This document shows positions 5,733-61,071 of a stretch of 64,000 nucleotides of DNA, piece after piece; position 1 is the stretch's first letter, and each line of letters opens with the position of its first letter. Location of the stretch: the NCBI RefSeq assembly GCF_005877885.1, contig NZ_VCHY01000007.1, positions 124,001-188,000 on the forward strand. Direction: 5' to 3'. The notes under the pieces were generated by a model. The model saw nothing but the letters and a program-made list of their open reading frames with translations. It was not told the origin of the DNA and made no database searches. Origin of the DNA: Labilibacter sediminis (lineage in GTDB: Bacteria > Bacteroidota > Bacteroidia > Bacteroidales > Marinilabiliaceae). The position numbers and the translations under genes were made by a program.

Positions 5733-5768
5733 ATCAATATTCATAGCCTACATCTATATCGGAAAACT

Positions 5769-5942
5769 TTAAACCCGCTTTATGCATTAGAAAATCTATT
5801 ACACATTGGTATCACTTCAAATCAAGACACTTTGTTGCTTCACTTCAACTCACCAGAACGATGCTATGCCTCGTCTCAGTAAAGCCTTGTTTTATCGTGC
5901 TTTCAATGTTCATGACGAAGTTCTAATACATAATGCGGGTTA
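5769..5942. repeat. 174-bp dispersed repeat with terminal inverted repeats, copy 1
   Basis: The ends are imperfect inverted repeats of about 24 bp (the left end begins TTAAACCCGC, the right end finishes with GCGGGTTA; about three mismatches). An equally long copy at 26901-27074 differs at only about ten positions. The element encodes no protein, so it looks like a non-autonomous MITE-like element. Target duplications could not be defined. It fills most of the gap between the divergent oxyR and purT genes. Confidence 0.85.
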
Positions 5943-6067
5943 AATCGATTTTATTTATATCTGAATTCTTCCCCAGCACCCTGCATTAAGTAAAACAACA
6001 CAAAAACTCCAAGCCCGACTGTTCACTACTTTAGGGCCTTTTGCACTTGCCATACAATAAGGATATA

Positions 6068-7410: not shown

Positions 7411-7683
7411 TCAATATACCATTGACCTTGCTATTAAATACCATTTTTTAACTCACAGACTAAAACTCCTGCCTAAAAGCCATAAACGCCTAACTTAAAG
7501 CCAAACAATTGTGCGTTTCAACCAGACCTGTGTAAGTTATAGGTAGAACTGCCTGAGCTGAAGTTAACATACACTGACTTTTTGCTACATCGTTATGGGT
7601 AAAAGCCAGAAATTCCTGGGGTAAAACCAGAAAATCCTAACCAAATGCCAGAAAACTTTGATTCAATACCAAAAAGTTTTAGT
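7411..7683. repeat. Degenerate 21-bp-period array A (13 units)
   Basis: From 7411 the DNA divides into 13 blocks of exactly 21 bases with no indels. Units differ but share a pattern: the clearest ones (starting 7474, 7495, 7600, 7621, 7642) read roughly TAAAAGCCAGAAA plus a variable tail ending in CTAAC or CTGGG. Unit position 9 is A in eleven of the 13 blocks and positions 7-8 are CC in seven. Stops occur in all frames considered. It starts 10 bp after the purT terminator and ends about 65 bp before the recG promoter. Two similar-period arrays lie at 26576-26806 and 59782-60013. Confidence 0.75.
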
Positions 7684-16900: not shown

Positions 16901-17947
16901 ATGACCAAAAATAAAGAGCAAAACCTTGAAAGTCTGGGCGAATTTGGGCTCATTGAGCACCTAACCAGTCAAATTGAAATTAAAAACGAAAGCACCTTAA
17001 AGGGCGTTGGTGATGATGCAGCCGTAATTGACTATCAAAACAAACAAGCTGTTGTTACAACAGATCTTCTATTACAGGGAATACATTTCGATTTGGTATA
17101 CACACCAATTAAGCATCTGGGTTATAAAGCAGTAATGGTTAATCTTAGCGATGTTTACGCCATGAATGCAACTCCAAAGCAAATAACGGTTTCAATTGGT
17201 GTTAGCTCAAGAATTTCTTTGTCTTTTATCGAAGAATTATACGAGGGAATTAAAGTTGCCTGTGACAAACACAATGTGGATTTAATTGGAGGCGACACTT
17301 CAACTTCTCTGACCGGATTAACCATTAGCATTACAGCCATTGGTGAAGCCAATAAGGAAGACATTGTTTATCGCAAAGGGGCAAAACCGAACGATTTAAT
17401 TTGTGTTTCGGGTGACTTAGGAGCGGCCTACATGGGACTTCAGGTTCTTGAAAGAGAAAAAAGAGTACACGCAGACAACAATTCAGTTCAACCTGATTTA
17501 TCAGGGTACGATTATATACTGGAACGTCAGTTAAAACCTGAGGCGCGCAAAGATGTGATTGAATATCTTAAAGCAGCAGGTGTAAAACCAACTTCTATGA
17601 TCGATATCTCTGATGGTTTATCTTCGGAAATATTACACATCTGTAAGCAATCAAATACAGGATGTCGTATCTACGAAAATAAAATTCCTATTGATCACGC
17701 TACTTCTTTAATGGCTGAAGAGATTAATATGAATCCAACAGTAGCTGCTCTTAATGGTGGTGAGGATTACGAATTGCTTTTTACCATTTCAATGGAAGAT
17801 TATGAGAAATTCTCTAAAGAAACAGATCTTAAAATATACACCATTGGCCATATCACCGAAGAAAGCAAAGGAAAATACCTTGTAACCAATGGCGATCAGG
17901 AAGTAGAATTACAGGCACAAGGTTGGAATGCGATAGGAAAACATTGA
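16901..17947 (+). CDS. thiL: Thiamine-monophosphate kinase
   Basis: ThiL phosphorylates thiamine monophosphate to the cofactor thiamine diphosphate. The 348 residues show the AIRS/PurM fold signatures: GVGDDAAVI near 36-44, TTDLLLQGIHFD near 53-64 (metal-binding Asp), NLSDVYAMNATP near 81-92, GGDTSTS near 129-135 and the C-terminal LNGGEDYELLF. All are intact and the length is typical. Its stop codon lies within the first unit of a 14-bp tandem repeat, so the extreme C-terminus may have been reset when that repeat arrived. Confidence 0.96.
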   Translation: MTKNKEQNLESLGEFGLIEHLTSQIEIKNESTLKGVGDDAAVIDYQNKQAVVTTDLLLQGIHFDLVYTPIKHLGYKAVMVNLSDVYAMNATPKQITVSIGVSSRISLSFIEELYEGIKVACDKHNVDLIGGDTSTSLTGLTISITAIGEANKEDIVYRKGAKPNDLICVSGDLGAAYMGLQVLEREKRVHADNNSVQPDLSGYDYILERQLKPEARKDVIEYLKAAGVKPTSMIDISDGLSSEILHICKQSNTGCRIYENKIPIDHATSLMAEEINMNPTVAALNGGEDYELLFTISMEDYEKFSKETDLKIYTIGHITEESKGKYLVTNGDQEVELQAQGWNAIGKH

Positions 17948-18000
17948 GCAGTGAACATTGAGCAGTGAACAGTGAGCAGTAAACAGTGAGCAGTGAGCAG
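17942..18000. repeat. 14-bp tandem repeat after thiL
   Basis: About four 14-bp units of the form CA(T/G)TGAGCAGTGAA run head to tail and overlap the thiL stop codon. Together with the 7-bp repeat at 18403-18444 they bracket the four-helix-bundle gene. Confidence 0.85.
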
Positions 18001-18402: not shown

Positions 18403-18444
18403 AACTGATAACTGATAACTGATAACTGGTTACTGATAACTGAA
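18403..18444. repeat. 7-bp tandem repeat upstream of ruvA
   Basis: Six units of AACTGAT (with slight variation) run right up to three bases before the ruvA ATG, leaving no independent room for a normal ruvA leader. Confidence 0.85.
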
Positions 18445-18447
18445 AAC

Positions 18448-19029
18448 ATGTTAGAATATATAAAAGGTCATATTATAGAATCCAGCCCGGCGCACTGCAT
18501 TGTTGAAAATAACGGATTGGGCTACTTCATAAACATCTCATTAAACACCTATACAAAGCTTCAAAATCAAAAAGAAGTTCAGCTTTTCTTATTTGAACAG
18601 ATAAGAGAAGATGCACACAACCTGTATGGTTTTTACGAAACTACCGAAAGAGATATTTTTGTTCACTTAATTTCGGTAAGTGGTATAGGAGCCAACACAG
18701 CCCGTATGATGTTGTCATCTATGTCGCCAGGAGAAATACGTGAGGCCATTACCAGCGGAAATGTCAATGTACTTAAGGGTATCAAAGGTATTGGAGCTAA
18801 AACTGCGCAACGGGTTATTGTTGATCTAACCGACAAATTAGGAAAAGAACCTGTTGATCAAAAAATATTTGCCGATCCAAACAATACTATAAAAGATGAG
18901 GCGTTATCTGCTTTAGTAATGTTAGGGTTTATGAAAGGAAGTGCCCAAAAAGTTGTGGATAAAATTCTGGCCAAAGAACCTGAATGTAAAGTTGAGGATG
19001 TCATAAAAAAATCACTTAAAATGCTATAA
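18448..19029 (+). CDS. ruvA: Holliday junction branch migration protein RuvA
   Basis: RuvA binds four-way DNA junctions as a tetramer and loads the RuvB motor. The 193 residues have the N-terminal OB domain (IKGHIIESSPAHCIVENNG), two helix-hairpin-helix motifs (VSGIGANTARMML near 76-88 and IKGIGAKTAQRVI near 111-123) and a C-terminal RuvB-binding domain (DEALSALVMLGF). All parts are complete. The ATG directly abuts a 7-bp tandem repeat, so expression may depend on read-through from thiL and the inserted gene. Confidence 0.96.
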   Translation: MLEYIKGHIIESSPAHCIVENNGLGYFINISLNTYTKLQNQKEVQLFLFEQIREDAHNLYGFYETTERDIFVHLISVSGIGANTARMMLSSMSPGEIREAITSGNVNVLKGIKGIGAKTAQRVIVDLTDKLGKEPVDQKIFADPNNTIKDEALSALVMLGFMKGSAQKVVDKILAKEPECKVEDVIKKSLKML

Positions 19030-26575: not shown

Positions 26576-26806
26576 GCTTTGTTAGTTTGATTCAGAGTCA
26601 AAATATTTTGGTTCCCTGTCTTAAAATTTTAATTCCCAGTCATAAATTTTTGACGCCCGGCCATTGGTTTAAGAAAAGTATAGGGAGTAGAATAAAAAGT
26701 AAATCACGGTGAATAAAAAACAAGAGATGGTGGATGAAAAGTTAAGGCGGTAAATAAAAAATAATTGATCGTTCATGAAAAATGAATGGAAGAGAATTAA
26801 AATAAA
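26576..26806. repeat. Degenerate 21-bp-period array B (11 units)
   Basis: Eleven consecutive 21-base blocks without indels follow sprA. The first four begin G(T/C)C or GCT, carry an AATTTTGATTCCC-like body and start at 26576, 26597, 26618 and 26639. From 26660 onward the pattern changes to blocks centred on GAATAAAAAGTA-like A-tracts (starts 26681, 26702, 26723, 26744, 26765, 26786), plausibly the reverse orientation of a related unit. A-runs recur every 21 bp, two helical turns. It ends about 95 bp before the 174-bp repeat copy. Confidence 0.7.
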
Positions 26807-26900
26807 CAAGACTTGTCACAATCTGGCGAAAAACATAAACGTCAGCATAATTTGAGAGATTTGTATGACGATTAAGATTCTCCCTAATTTCCATTTATGT

Positions 26901-27074
26901 TTAAACCCGCAATATGCATTAGAAAATCTATTACACATTGAAATCACTTCAAAACAAGACACTTTGTTGCTTCACTTCAACTCACCAGAGCGATGCTATG
27001 CCTCGTTTCAGTAAAGCCTTGTTTTATTGTGCATTCAATGTTCATGACGAAGTTCTAATACATAATCCGGGTTA
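26901..27074. repeat. 174-bp dispersed repeat with terminal inverted repeats, copy 2
   Basis: Same orientation and length as 5769-5942, with about ten substitutions and no indel (about 94% identical). Terminal inverted repeats are kept. It lies in the sprA to DUF3857 gap. Confidence 0.85.
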
Positions 27075-27126
27075 AAAGGTAAAACCTCTTACGTTTCATC
27101 TTAGACTAGAAAAAAAATAATTATCT

Positions 27127-56370: not shown

Positions 56371-56826
56371 TTACATCCACAAATACTCTTCATTATATTC
56401 TACACCATATTCTTTTAAAAACAATAAATATTCATCTTTAAATGACATTGTTGTATGATGTTTTTGCTGATGCTTGATGTAGCTAAATGTTTTGTCATAT
56501 AAAGAAGGACTAACAGAAAAACCACCATAACCACCTTGCCATTTAAATGCCTTATAATAATTATCAAGGTTTTTAAGCCATCTACTACTGTGTCTTTTGA
56601 TTTCTTTTATAAACGCAGCTAACGCTATATTTTTCGACATGATACAGAAAACATGTATATGATCCTCAACACCATTAATAATTAAAGGTATTGAGTCGTT
56701 GTCTTTTATTATGGAGCCAATATAACTGTATAAAATATCTTTGTCAGAATTTCTAATATATGTATTAGACTGATCTTTTACATGAAAGATAATGTGAATG
56801 TAAAGTTTTGATAAAGATTGTGACAT
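56371..56826 (-). CDS. IS200-like / REP-associated tyrosine transposase (RAYT), Y1 family
   Basis: A 151-residue single-strand DNA transposase of the HUH superfamily. The metal-binding His-x-His is His56-Ile-His58 (GVEDHIHVF) and the catalytic Tyr is Tyr116 in FSYIKHQQKHH; both are intact. The start at 56826 (MSQSLSKLYIHIIFHVK) matches family N-termini; an upstream in-frame ATG at 56922 would run through the right REP hairpins and is rejected. The gene is bracketed by inverted REP-like units, the arrangement typical of domesticated RAYTs rather than a mobile IS200. Confidence 0.88.
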   Translation of the reverse strand: MSQSLSKLYIHIIFHVKDQSNTYIRNSDKDILYSYIGSIIKDNDSIPLIINGVEDHIHVFCIMSKNIALAAFIKEIKRHSSRWLKNLDNYYKAFKWQGGYGGFSVSPSLYDKTFSYIKHQQKHHTTMSFKDEYLLFLKEYGVEYNEEYLWM

Positions 56827-56890
56827 ATATATATATTGTGTTTTAATATAAATATACCAATATGTTTCATCATATAGGTAAAAATGATCT

Positions 56891-56968
56891 GTCCTTACAG
56901 GACGCTGATTCTTATTTTGCATAACCCCAGGCGATGCCTGGGGCTAGGTTAAACTGTGCTTTCAGCAC
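56891..56968. repeat. Right REP-like unit (inverted) flanking the RAYT-type transposase
   Basis: In mirror order to the left unit: GTCCT/AGGAC (56891-56903), CCCCAGGC/GCCTGGGG (56925-56943) and GTGCT/AGCAC (56956-56968). The middle stems of the two units differ in sequence yet both pair perfectly. Confidence 0.75.
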
Positions 56969-58606: not shown

Positions 58607-59704
58607 ATGAAAAATTTATTTTTGGTGGCAGTACTTGCTATTGCCTTATTTTCATGTCAACAGAAAAACTTTAAAATTAGCGGTACTGTTGAAAACCTGA
58701 CAGAAGGAGAAGTAATTTTAAAGAAGATTGTTGCCAATGCGCCTGTATCATTAGATACTGCACAAATTGTTGAGGGTAAATTTACTTTCACAGGATCTGA
58801 AGATGAAGCTCAATTATATCTTATTTTTATTGATGACAACCGCATGCCTGTTGTATTCTTTGGTGAGAATAAAAACATCGATATTACTGTAAATACAGAA
58901 AATATGGGTGATGCTGTTATTTCCGGATCTCCTGTTACAGATATCTATACTGCTTTTGTAAAAGAGGTTCCAGGAAAAGATAAAATGGAATCTATTCAGG
59001 CTGAATACCAACAAGCTATGAGTGCTGGTGATCAGGATAAAATGACTGCCATCAGAGAAGAGGTTTCGGAATTGATGGAAGAGCAAAAAGCTTATTTTAT
59101 CCAGTTTGTTAAAGACAACACTACCAATGTAGTAGGTGCTAACATGGCCATGCAAGCTGCAAACGAGTTTGAATTTGAAGAGTTTAAAGCGTTAGTAGGA
59201 AAATTTGAAGCCAGCCTAGGTGAACACATGTACGTTAAAGAGCTTAAAAAAGTACTTGAGCCTCTTGAGAAAGCTGCTGCTGCTGAAAAAGCCACTGAAA
59301 TTGGCCAGGTTGCTCCTGACTTTACCTTAGAGTCGGTTTCAGGTGAGTCTTTAGCTTTATCTTCATTAAAAGGAAAATATGTATTGGTGGATTTTTGGGC
59401 ATCATGGTGTAAGCCTTGTAGAGAAGAAAACCCTAATGTGGTAAAAGCCTACAATGATTTCAGCGCTAAAGGTTTTGATGTTTTAGGTGTTTCATTAGAC
59501 AGAGATTCAGCTGCATGGAAACAAGCCATTAAAGATGACGGTTTAGTTTGGAATCAGGTAATTGACGGAAATGGTGATATTGCTTCTACTTATGGCGTAT
59601 CCGGTATTCCTTTTACTTTATTACTTGATAAAGAAGGTAAGATTGTAGCTAAAAACCTTCGCGGTGAAGCACTAACAAACAAACTTGCAGAGCTGTTGAA
59701 CTAA
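58607..59704 (+). CDS. TlpA-like thiol-disulfide oxidoreductase lipoprotein with DUF4369 domain
   Basis: A 365-residue lipoprotein: lipobox LFSC (Cys17), an N-terminal DUF4369 beta domain (about 20-115), a helical linker and a C-terminal thioredoxin/AhpC-TSA domain. The redox motif is Trp267-Cys268-Lys-Pro-Cys271, with the cis-Pro loop GVSGIPFTLLL further on. It should reduce disulfides in the periplasm, perhaps in cytochrome or protein maturation. This architecture is common in Bacteroidota. A terminator follows the stop. Confidence 0.93.
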   Translation: MKNLFLVAVLAIALFSCQQKNFKISGTVENLTEGEVILKKIVANAPVSLDTAQIVEGKFTFTGSEDEAQLYLIFIDDNRMPVVFFGENKNIDITVNTENMGDAVISGSPVTDIYTAFVKEVPGKDKMESIQAEYQQAMSAGDQDKMTAIREEVSELMEEQKAYFIQFVKDNTTNVVGANMAMQAANEFEFEEFKALVGKFEASLGEHMYVKELKKVLEPLEKAAAAEKATEIGQVAPDFTLESVSGESLALSSLKGKYVLVDFWASWCKPCREENPNVVKAYNDFSAKGFDVLGVSLDRDSAAWKQAIKDDGLVWNQVIDGNGDIASTYGVSGIPFTLLLDKEGKIVAKNLRGEALTNKLAELLN

Positions 59705-59728: not shown

Positions 59729-59759
59729 AAGCCGGTGATTACTCATCGGCTTTTTTTAT
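59729..59759 (+). terminator. Intrinsic terminator of the TlpA-like gene
   Basis: AAGCCGGTGA (59729-59738) pairs with TCATCGGCTT (59743-59752) with one non-Watson-Crick pair, then seven T. Confidence 0.85.
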
Positions 59760-59781: not shown

Positions 59782-60013
59782 TTCCTATCTAATCACCACA
59801 TCATTCAAATACCTTAGCACATCTCTTAATTATAGAAGTACATTAATATATTAGTGGTGCACATCGTTTAATTAATAAAGCACATCTGATGTACTAATCT
59901 GTTTTACTGATGTACTTCACTATTTAATCGATGTACTTGGTCAATTAATCGATGTGCTTACTTATATTAAAGATGTTTTTAATAATTTTATCAATGAGGT
60001 AATATAATTAGGT
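59782..60013. repeat. Degenerate 21-bp-period array C with central inversion (5 reverse + 6 forward units)
   Basis: Five units end in CACATC or ACATT at 59802, 59823, 59844, 59865 and 59886 (reverse orientation); after one base (59887), six units start with GATGT or a variant at 59888, 59909, 59930, 59951, 59972 and 59993. Every step is exactly 21 bp. The forward unit is GATGTACTT, then an AT-rich body ending TTAATC. The centre reads GCACATC-T-GATGTAC. It lies between convergent genes, after a terminator. Confidence 0.85.
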
Positions 60014-60061: not shown

Positions 60062-60811
60062 TTACAACAAACCCGGTTTCCGCATAAAATCTTTTGTTAC
60101 TGAAGTTCGATATTTTGCATTTAAGGCTTTGACAGATCGACTCACATAACCTTTCTTTCGCATAGGATCATTTTTAAAAACGAATTGACCACATTGGCGA
60201 ATCTCTTTCATTGTTTGTTGCAGGAGATAGGAATATCTGTTTCGCATTTCAAGGAGTTCACTACCTCCTCTGTTCACTGAATTAACCTCAGCCATAAGGT
60301 CACTCCCTTCGTCACTCTTATCATATAAGGTTTCTATTAAAGAAGAATCGATACCTACCTTAGAAAGCTCTTCCTGGTTACTTTCTCCCATAACAGCCAG
60401 ATCACTCAGCCCTTGAAATATTTCAGCATATTTCATCCGCTTATTCATACCCGACAGTCTTTTTACCAAACCGGTATCATGCCTAAAAGCATACTTATAC
60501 TTTCTAATGGTATCGGCGTAAAGCAACCTGTACCCCATTTTATTCTTGTTCCAAAGCAATTTGTGCTCGTTGTTACTTTTTGTTACCCAGCTAACCTGTG
60601 CTTCGCGAGTTAATTGTATTAACCACTTCAATTCATCCAAAATACCAGACTGTAAACCATGTTTTTGTAACGCTTCTTTATCTTGTGTACTCCAGGCGAG
60701 CAACTCCTCGGCTTCAAGCGTTAACACATCTACCGAAATTCTATTCTTTACTTTAGTTTTAAGCTCCAGGTTTTTGGCCTTATTTTCAACATCTTGTTTG
60801 CTTATACTCAT
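60062..60811 (-). CDS. Uncharacterised helical protein
   Basis: A 249-residue, basic, helix-rich cytoplasmic protein with no signal peptide or membrane helix. I do not recognise a family. Visible features: an early KVKNRISVDVLTLEAEELLAW segment, Trp/Lys-rich middle (LLWNKNKMGYRLLYADTIRKY near 88-108), a Gly-Glu-Ser-Asn-rich part and a very basic C-terminus (MRKKGYVSRSVKALNAKYR). The charge could fit nucleic-acid binding, but that is only a guess. It is transcribed alone, its 3' end faces the 21-bp array C, and its upstream side has an inverted repeat. Confidence 0.75.
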   Translation of the reverse strand: MSISKQDVENKAKNLELKTKVKNRISVDVLTLEAEELLAWSTQDKEALQKHGLQSGILDELKWLIQLTREAQVSWVTKSNNEHKLLWNKNKMGYRLLYADTIRKYKYAFRHDTGLVKRLSGMNKRMKYAEIFQGLSDLAVMGESNQEELSKVGIDSSLIETLYDKSDEGSDLMAEVNSVNRGGSELLEMRNRYSYLLQQTMKEIRQCGQFVFKNDPMRKKGYVSRSVKALNAKYRTSVTKDFMRKPGLL

Positions 60812-60937
60812 GGGTTAAAATTATAGGTTTTAAGATTACTTATGTAAAGTCTATAAAATTATAGCAAATAGTGGAAATTACAAGATTTGAAATAAATATT
60901 CTCAGGGATTTCGTTTTTAACCATAAAAATTATTAAA

Positions 60938-61016
60938 ACCACAAATCTCACAGATTAACACGAATTATTTTCCTTCGGAAAATAAAAATCTGTGCAAATT
61001 CGTGTCAATCTGTGGT
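60938..61016. repeat. Inverted repeat related to the GxxExxY-flanking sequences
   Basis: Arms starting ACCACA and ending TGTGGT contain AATCT, CAGATT and ACACGAATT words on both sides; the centre is a perfect 9-bp hairpin TTATTTTCC/GGAAAATAA. The ATTCGTG and AATCTG words resemble the repeats around the GxxExxY gene. No gene is inside. Confidence 0.6.
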
Positions 61017-61071
61017 TGAATATTTTCAAATAACACATCACTGGCTTAAAGGCGATTTCCCTATAAATAAT

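Follow-up and report, generated by a model that had tools for sequence, protein, structure and literature searches.

A mirrored 21-bp array in Labilibacter sediminis pairs with a gene for a PQLLE-related helical protein and may serve as its DNA platform

Helically phased repeats beside the gene of their binding protein are familiar from iteron-Rep and centromere-ParB pairs, in which the words of the repeats differ between copies. In REPIN-RAYT systems a gene, which encodes a Y1 transposase, has its own hairpin repeats in cis and more copies elsewhere, while in type III toxin-antitoxin systems the antitoxin repeats sit just 5' of the toxin gene. In bacteria, Subirana and Messeguer reported tandem repeats that vary in sequence but keep a constant size (20-21, also 52 nt), described there as being of no known function, and noted that 21 bp corresponds to two helical turns, proposing either a protein that polymerises on the DNA or small RNAs (PMC8161180). 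The BrickBuilt minisatellite MITE of Porphyromonas gingivalis comprises 19 elements with 23-nt repeats of one word and with terminal inverted repeats (PMC4596501).

Here we analyse a mirrored array of 21-bp units at positions 59782-60013 of a 64,000-nt stretch of Labilibacter sediminis DNA (assembly GCF_005877885.1, contig NZ_VCHY01000007.1), referred to as the window. As in iteron-Rep and centromere-ParB pairs, a helically phased array adjoins the gene of a presumed binding protein and the words differ between copies; unlike those pairs, the locus has one gene, lies on contigs of hundreds of kb, and yielded no initiator, ParA or known DNA-binding domain. It shares with REPIN-RAYT a gene with repeats in cis and further copies elsewhere, but the unit is without a Y1 transposase and its repeats are 21-bp arrays, not hairpins. 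The array lies 3' of the window gene and no toxin family was matched, which sets the locus apart from type III toxin-antitoxin systems. BrickBuilt is likewise an intergenic tandem repeat on a mobile-looking element of a Bacteroidota species, but its repeats are of 23 nt with one word and no linked gene is described in the text available (PMC4596501). The array is of the same kind as the constant-size repeats, which are also noncoding, near two helical turns in length and present as several families per species (PMC8161180): lag 21 is dominant here, the arrays are noncoding, and different words occur within one genome, some of them in families. An earlier note on this DNA knew of no description of such arrays, a claim that does not hold, since fixed-size repeats of 20-21 nt have been described, the remark on two helical turns included. 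Those repeats are tandem copies, however, described without a partner gene or mirror symmetry in the sections on them that were consulted, and the term 'bacteroid' does not occur in the main text (PMC8161180). The NCBIfam model NF052641, 'PQLLE family protein', names neither a function nor an array, and a literature search, made mostly among papers available without subscription, found neither the word PQLLE nor a report of such a gene-array pair. What is new here is the partner gene family, the correspondence between word and protein, and the occurrence of gene and array as one block.

The array and others of its kind

Read in register, the array consists of eleven degenerate units exactly 21 bp apart, five in reverse and six in forward orientation around base 59887, with zero indels, just as the earlier note had described it; the outermost units are the weakest. 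The reverse units end at 59802, 59823, 59844, 59865 and 59886 (..CACATC, ..CACATC, ..TACATT, ..CACATC and ..CACATC, respectively), and the forward units start at 59887, 59908, 59929, 59950, 59971 and 59992 (TGATGTACT, TGATGTACTT, CGATGTACTT, CGATGTGCTT, AGATGTTTTT and CAATGAGGTA). Autocorrelation, which the note had proposed as a check, gave 115 matches out of 211 at lag 21, whereas 2000 dinucleotide shuffles average 63.5 (z 8.2; 0/2000 as high); lags 42 and 63 come next, and either half is significant by itself. Mirror symmetry at 59887 (64/105 complementary) is the top score among all centres in the window. Centres shifted by half a unit reach 62 and 60 of 105, nearly the same score, which argues that the arms are mirrored sites and not a specially matched hairpin. 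The units are more degenerate than tandem copies of the type found by TRF, which reports just 2.4 copies. Being head-to-tail without spacers, degenerate and mirrored, the array is not a CRISPR, in agreement with the note. No frame is open across it, and the longest stop-free frame inside, in the right half, spans 42 aa. A coding heptad-repeat protein was considered because the right half reads DVLxxLI in one frame, and was rejected because the array has no through-open frame and its sister array has stops too.

The flanking genes are convergent, a TlpA-like thioredoxin gene (58607-59704, +) on one side and an unannotated 249-aa gene on the other (Table 1), and the scored array starts 66 bp past the stop codon of the latter. 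An IS200-like Y1 transposase gene (Pfam PF01797) is found at 56371-56922, 2.9 kb from the array.

Table 1. Positions of the arrays and adjoining features in the window
Feature	Position	Strand	Basis and remarks
Hairpin with T-run between TlpA gene and array	59729-59758	+	By eye; absent from terminator-scan calls
Left half of array, five 21-bp units reversed (cores ..GCACATC)	59782-59886	-	Register reading, lag statistics; word also in G000:C321 array
Central base 59887 and right half, six forward 21-bp units (GATGTRCTT)	59887-60013	+	Register reading, lag statistics
249-aa gene, predicted all-helical protein, pI 9.5	60062-60811	-	NCBIfam PQLLE family NF052641, E 1.1e-6, 28.5 bits, cut-off 80
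Second array, word TTTGATTCCCAGTCATAAAAT	26580-26800		Word similarity 0.54 to array beside PQLLE gene G000:C219:283834-284460
Third array, word TAAAAGCCAGAAATTCCTGGG	7453-7683		Word similarity 0.71 to G000:C321:238851

Similar arrays, whose absence the earlier note would have held against its reading, occur not only in the window but also elsewhere in the genome and in other Bacteroidota. Lags 8 to 63 were scanned in the noncoding DNA of the window and of contigs C321 and C219 of the same genome (834 kb). Ten places pass at lag 21, the most of any lag, followed by lag 42 with five, and the mean for lags that are not multiples of 7 is 0.65. Seven of the ten are pure 21-bp arrays, two are 7-mer repeats (window 17861 and C321:61931) and one is doubtful (C219:143399). 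The pure arrays are the one at 59782-60013, a sister array with the same word (G000:C321:~106760-107040; similarity 0.86), two pairs with similarities of 0.54 (26580-26800 and C219:284527) and 0.71 (7453-7683 and C321:238851), and C219:156668. The sister array is also inverted, at a nearly identical centre (AGCACATCTGATGTACT in the window array, AGTACATCTGATGTACT in the sister), and a pattern search of the word found four places with at most one mismatch, all inside these two arrays. A reversed second half was suspected in the 26580-26800 array from three in-phase reverse hits, its mirror symmetry being below z 3.

Five of the seven pure arrays in these 834 kb have no family gene nearby, and all five lie between co-directional genes; no PQLLE gene was found near 26580-26800 and no relative of the 249-aa protein near 7453-7683. 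The C321 sister (0.86) and the 26580 array (0.54) resemble gene-linked arrays and the other three do not. Solo arrays might have been relics of a gene-array unit, but tblastn with 52 family proteins left no trace of a gene in nine solo-array regions (five of this genome, four of the genomes of L103, L125 and L141), and this explanation was discarded.

Arrays with still other words occur in a G001 sample, in Labilibacter marinus and in Chitinophagaceae and Cytophagales MAGs. A DNA search with the window array in 60 relatives yielded no more than weak matches of 40, 33 and 38 bp, in three genomes that do not belong to the family, because the words differ, and the arrays at 26580-26800 and 7453-7683 had no DNA match in 12 relatives each. 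Lag-21 identity ranges from 90% (L141:13048) down to about 45%. Among unit spacings of up to 70 bp, 362/426 are exactly 21, 7 are 20 and 4 are 22, a distribution biased by the choice of arrays at lag 21, while mirror or palindromic symmetry at z>=3 (40 shuffles each) is seen in 13/63 entries (12 distinct arrays). The central inversion, real in the window array, is a minority trait. Some arrays have a 42-bp super-period (L220, L228, L222 and L103:11223-11540, the last with two alternating 21-bp words).

Linkage to a family of helical proteins

Several comparisons identify the 249-aa protein as a remote relative of the uncharacterised PQLLE family of NCBI. It is not itself a member, scoring far below the curated cut-off of NF052641, and it has no Pfam match at E<=0.001; however, a profile-profile comparison of the 249-aa type with PQLLE gave a probability of 96.5 (E 7.8e-10), and 13/14 full-length members of the type match NF052641 weakly. 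The PQLLE cut-off is exceeded by genes of the same genome at C219:283834 and C1:330250/332580 and by G001:C21. By protein similarity only, relatives of the 249-aa protein occur at 17 places in 8/9 genomes of the genus; this genome accounts for five of the 17. Among 148 Bacteroidota genomes the 249-aa profile matched it alone. The PQLLE family matches 9 of 198 Bacteroidota genomes at E<=0.001, 3 of them above the curated cut-off, and none of 14 control genomes of other phyla.

The structure model of PQLLE has high confidence (pLDDT 95, pTM 0.81) and consists of two tandem repeats, each with a helix, a short helix, a 56-residue helix and a short helix. The 249-aa model (pLDDT 84, pTM 0.54) has a similar helix order, with the second long helix broken and an extra C-terminal helix. 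The net charge of the 249-aa protein is +11, with +8 in the last 35 residues, but the pI is below 7 in 35/52 full-length family proteins, and long forms have net charges of -3 to -21, which speaks against a simple charge-driven binding of DNA. No known DNA-binding domain was found with Pfam, PHROG or PADLOC, and NCBIfam gives PQLLE alone (1 to 14 members per search); Foldseek against PDB and viral models gave nothing at E<=0.001, and one PQLLE protein had no match in plasmid and phage collections. A subfamily of PQLLE proteins marked by 'MHYTK' (L192, L193, L198, L203, L206) is basic, with a pI of 9.3-9.8. Two long members, L270 and L279 (in G291, the Chitinophagaceae MAG of L125), have a C-terminal part that appears beta-rich by eye and also matches frames of 141-3929 aa in other Bacteroidota.

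Linkage was assessed in loci fetched by protein search alone, with a 21-bp score of >=13 taken as an array and random 3.5-kb segments as the control. An array was present in 62/87 protein-found loci and in 39/788 random segments (17/397 and 22/391 in two sets). The locus sets contributed 12/17 (249-aa type), 11/22 (PQLLE, genus), 19/22 (PQLLE, phylum), 15/18 (further loci) and 5/8 (more loci); sister species contribute loci that are not independent, and the phylum set by itself gives 19/22 against 22/391. The control lags 20 and 22 pass in 7 and 1, respectively, of the first 61 loci. Arrays were 7-mer-like in 1/62 positive loci (L163) and in 10/39 random positives.

The 15/18 were loci new to the count from a search of 49 genomes reached through named loci. 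Ten of these genomes had matches, and seven of the ten are Marinilabiliaceae with 2 to 13 places each. We examined 30 of the 42 places and dropped 12 of these 30 loci as repeats (G258, G259, G260 and G264 show the contigs and positions of G001, G002, G005 and G008). A second profile (A3), made from long members, supplied the 5/8, which are new loci that match in the helical part, whereas arrays were found in 1/20 places that match in the C-terminal part only; 30 of its 35 places were examined. One overlapping place (L200), five own places already counted, and L303 and L323, also already counted, were left out. Pure arrays had been seen in 13-21-kb samples of the genomes of L103, L125 and L141, which lie outside the Marinilabiliaceae, and 3/3 of these have family genes with arrays; helical-part matches occur in 4/51 other genomes searched with one or both profiles (Fisher p 0.0014), although the second profile includes two proteins of G291, so that success there is not independent and the comparison as a whole not fully so. 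A linked gene-array pair that is real, exceeds chance and extends beyond one locus is well supported by these results. Array and adjacent gene, the latter encoding a PQLLE-related helical protein, are the two halves of a compact locus. Such loci are present in several copies per Marinilabiliaceae genome and are sparse in other Bacteroidota, mostly each with its own 21-bp word.

The position of the array depends on the type of gene. In 13/17 loci of the 249-aa type a 21-bp array lies right after the gene, that of L162 and L164 being best seen at lag 63; there is none in this place in L150 (329 bp of DNA left 3'), L151, L155 and L163. The 12/17 at the score threshold are made up of ten of the 13, in which the array is 9-191 bp 3' of the gene, together with L151 (array 661 bp away) and L163 (7-mer array 492 bp 5'). 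Arrays of the PQLLE type are 5' of the gene in 11/11 genus loci (18-207 bp) and in 18/19 phylum loci. No array reaches the threshold in 25/87 loci, among them all five 'MHYTK' loci (scores 6.7-10.9), yet in three of these five the best 21-bp stretch is at the expected place. The placing of the array at convergent gene ends, which the earlier note had mentioned, is true of the window array but not general, as linked arrays lie on either side of their genes and solo arrays between co-directional ones; a convergent-end boundary element was rejected on these grounds.

The word of an array tends to follow its protein. Phase-folded profiles of 43 arrays were compared in all rotations and on both strands, with column-permuted words as the null, giving 703 pairs with proteins. 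Word similarity exceeded the 99% level of the null in 7/8 pairs at a protein identity of >=0.6, in 5/20 at 0.4-0.6, in 2/54 at 0.3-0.4 and in 10/621 below 0.3; thus, close protein relatives have a common word and distant paralogues have different ones. Of eight relative pairs aligned without gaps, one compared a locus with itself, and L265/L267 failed to align. The best offsets of the remaining six differ by multiples of 21 or lie within 2 bp of such. In five pairs the informative columns are better kept (46/54 vs 29/52; 48/84 vs 32/84; 41/61 vs 28/62; 45/75 vs 28/72; 61/67 vs 51/64), and in L153/L156 they are not (33/64 vs 33/64). Eleven same-word pairs were checked for flanking DNA: two have similar flanks, which indicates descent in place, and nine have none within about 1 kb. 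Shared words of orthologous arrays would arise by descent without any recognition, and it is only the moved blocks that would oppose mere descent.

Apparent mobility of gene and array

Two cases make it reasonably supported, from comparison of genomes, that gene and array may move between genomes as one piece. G006:C56 and G002:C113 have a common block of 143 + 576 bp with 94-97% identity, which comprises upstream DNA, gene and array and stops within the last clear array unit, the surroundings being unrelated; the G002 copy of the gene is without 315 bp, start included. A comparison of the 7-kb and 20-kb stretches around the two copies gave no second blastn match at E<=1e-8. When the whole G006 contig was compared with G002, the gene-array block was the only long match among the matches listed, the rest lying in a short dispersed repeat. 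A PQLLE pair from G006 and G002 (one a fragment) is only 63% identical, and the block, at 94-97%, therefore looks recently transferred. In the second case, a 936-bp block (82%) common to G007:C5 and G008:C209 starts within the array, contains the gene and extends ~150 bp past it. The moved block holds one gene, and inspection by eye of the ends of both blocks revealed neither common terminal repeats nor target duplications. The TlpA and cation-efflux genes adjoin each other directly in Saccharicrinis sp. LH_M88, so the array and gene look like an insertion between them in the lineage studied here.

The same observations could be explained if a recombinase supplied elsewhere acted on the array as the end of a mobile unit, as with integron cassettes, the protein being cargo or an accessory. 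The joint movement of gene and array, the end of the G006/G002 block in the last clear array unit, and the position of the window unit between two genes that adjoin in Saccharicrinis would all fit. However, words that differ between loci are ill-suited to one shared recombinase, inspection by eye showed no common features of the kinds sought at the compared ends, and arrays also occur alone; we consider this explanation unlikely.

Working form of the array and its proposed role

The window array folds better than most shuffles (z -3.7; 1/200 as good), and the earlier note had listed a structured RNA among its readings. This was not borne out: out-of-register pairing is nearly as good, no Rfam family was matched at gathering score, and a hairpin RNA was rejected despite the z value. 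Terminator-like hairpins with a T-run follow the stop codon in 7/17 loci of the 249-aa type, and in the 6 of these that have an array the hairpin is at or before the array start. These hairpins, the mirrored arrays and the spacing kept under drift favour double-stranded DNA as the probable working form. An RNA-level system, in which repeat RNA transcribed from the array binds to the protein in the manner of type III toxin-antitoxin, would agree with the place of the PQLLE-type array just 5' of its gene and with the transcription of some bacterial satellites (PMC8161180, PMC8625621). It is nevertheless quite improbable, because the 249-aa-type array is 3' of its gene, with such a hairpin at or before its start in six loci, mirrored arrays would yield an RNA with repeats in both orientations, RNA offers no evident reason for an exact two-turn spacing, and no toxin family was matched.

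A passive minisatellite, produced by a mutational process that makes 21-bp tandem copies which then drift with nothing bound to them, would account for the wide range of lag-21 identities and for arrays without a gene. The low number of indels under drift (a count subject to the bias towards lag 21 noted above), the linkage to one protein family and the mirrored halves make it a still poorer candidate. Curved DNA, or DNA for gyrase or nucleoid proteins, of general use and with no dedicated partner, is the least probable of all: the two-turn phase and the place of the window array between convergent genes, where torsion gathers, would suit it, but other arrays are not tied to convergent ends and their presence follows one protein family and its helical part.

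We therefore return to the proposal of the earlier note that the array is a platform for a dimeric or oligomeric DNA-binding protein, with all units on one face. This is the best-supported reading, only indirectly, through the linkage to one protein family across the phylum, the word that follows the protein and the array at the edge of a moved block; binding itself is the predicted part. The preference of arrays for loci that match in the helical part, the better-kept informative columns, the confident tandem-repeat model of PQLLE and the basic 249-aa protein also speak for it. We put at roughly 60% the probability that the array is a helically phased DNA platform of the neighbouring protein, which would recognise the double-stranded DNA of its own array. 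An ordered nucleoprotein complex would be built on the array, with a protomer or dimer at every second helical turn and all of them on the same face of the helix. Selection would hold the spacing and the core word while the remainder of each unit drifts. As such a complex would read DNA, units might point either way and an array might be mirrored, as in the window. Different words would keep co-resident copies apart, a putative lock-and-key mechanism that we regard as likely, and same-word arrays without a gene nearby may be second binding places in trans. Against the platform reading, five of seven pure arrays in the 834 kb of this genome have no gene nearby, and the words of no more than two of the five match that of a gene-linked array. 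The 25 loci below the array threshold, the mostly acidic proteins, the L153/L156 pair and the failure to find a known DNA-binding domain or a significant fold match count against it as well.

The complex could serve chromosome bridging or retention of the unit, gene silencing, or mobilisation. By analogy, our first guess is a self-maintaining selfish or nucleoid-anchoring element that would work like an iteron or centromere with its binding protein. More tentatively, and at somewhat less than even odds, these loci may represent a new class of selfish or chromosome-organising element of Bacteroidota, single-gene and horizontally moving, in which lock-and-key co-evolution joins an uncharacterised tandem-helical-repeat protein to a 21-bp phased array; many distinct words would be present per genome, and same-word arrays would act in trans. 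No partner or function of constant-size bacterial satellites was found in the literature searched, and a protein family that travels with arrays offers a concrete handle; recognition could be tested with no more than a single purified protein and a 230-bp DNA fragment. Should recognition go with the word, the many protein-word pairs would form a natural series for learning how helical-repeat proteins read DNA, and the units would count as a small mobile element of a new kind. If the lock-and-key reading is true, the constant-size 20-21-nt satellites of other bacteria may have the same explanation.

Other repeats were observed in the course of this work. Tandem 7-bp repeats (GAGCAGTGAACAGT and TAACTGA type) lie at 17940-18000 and 18403-18453 of the window, either side of a ~120-aa gene from 18031, the product of which resembles a four-helix-bundle (S23-like) protein. 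This is another presumed helical-protein gene with short DNA repeats adjoining, and TAACTGA repeats have been described (PMC4679880). An inverted-repeat-like element at 60926-61060, between the 249-aa gene and the cation-efflux gene, has 94.8% identity over 134 bp to a copy in contig C66. A repeat of ~100 bp at L242:430-530 is present in at least dozens of copies across several genomes of the genus, and a ~177-bp interspersed repeat at 26900-27077 and 5768-5944 of the window has at least 17 further near-full-length copies (75-99%) in the 834 kb.
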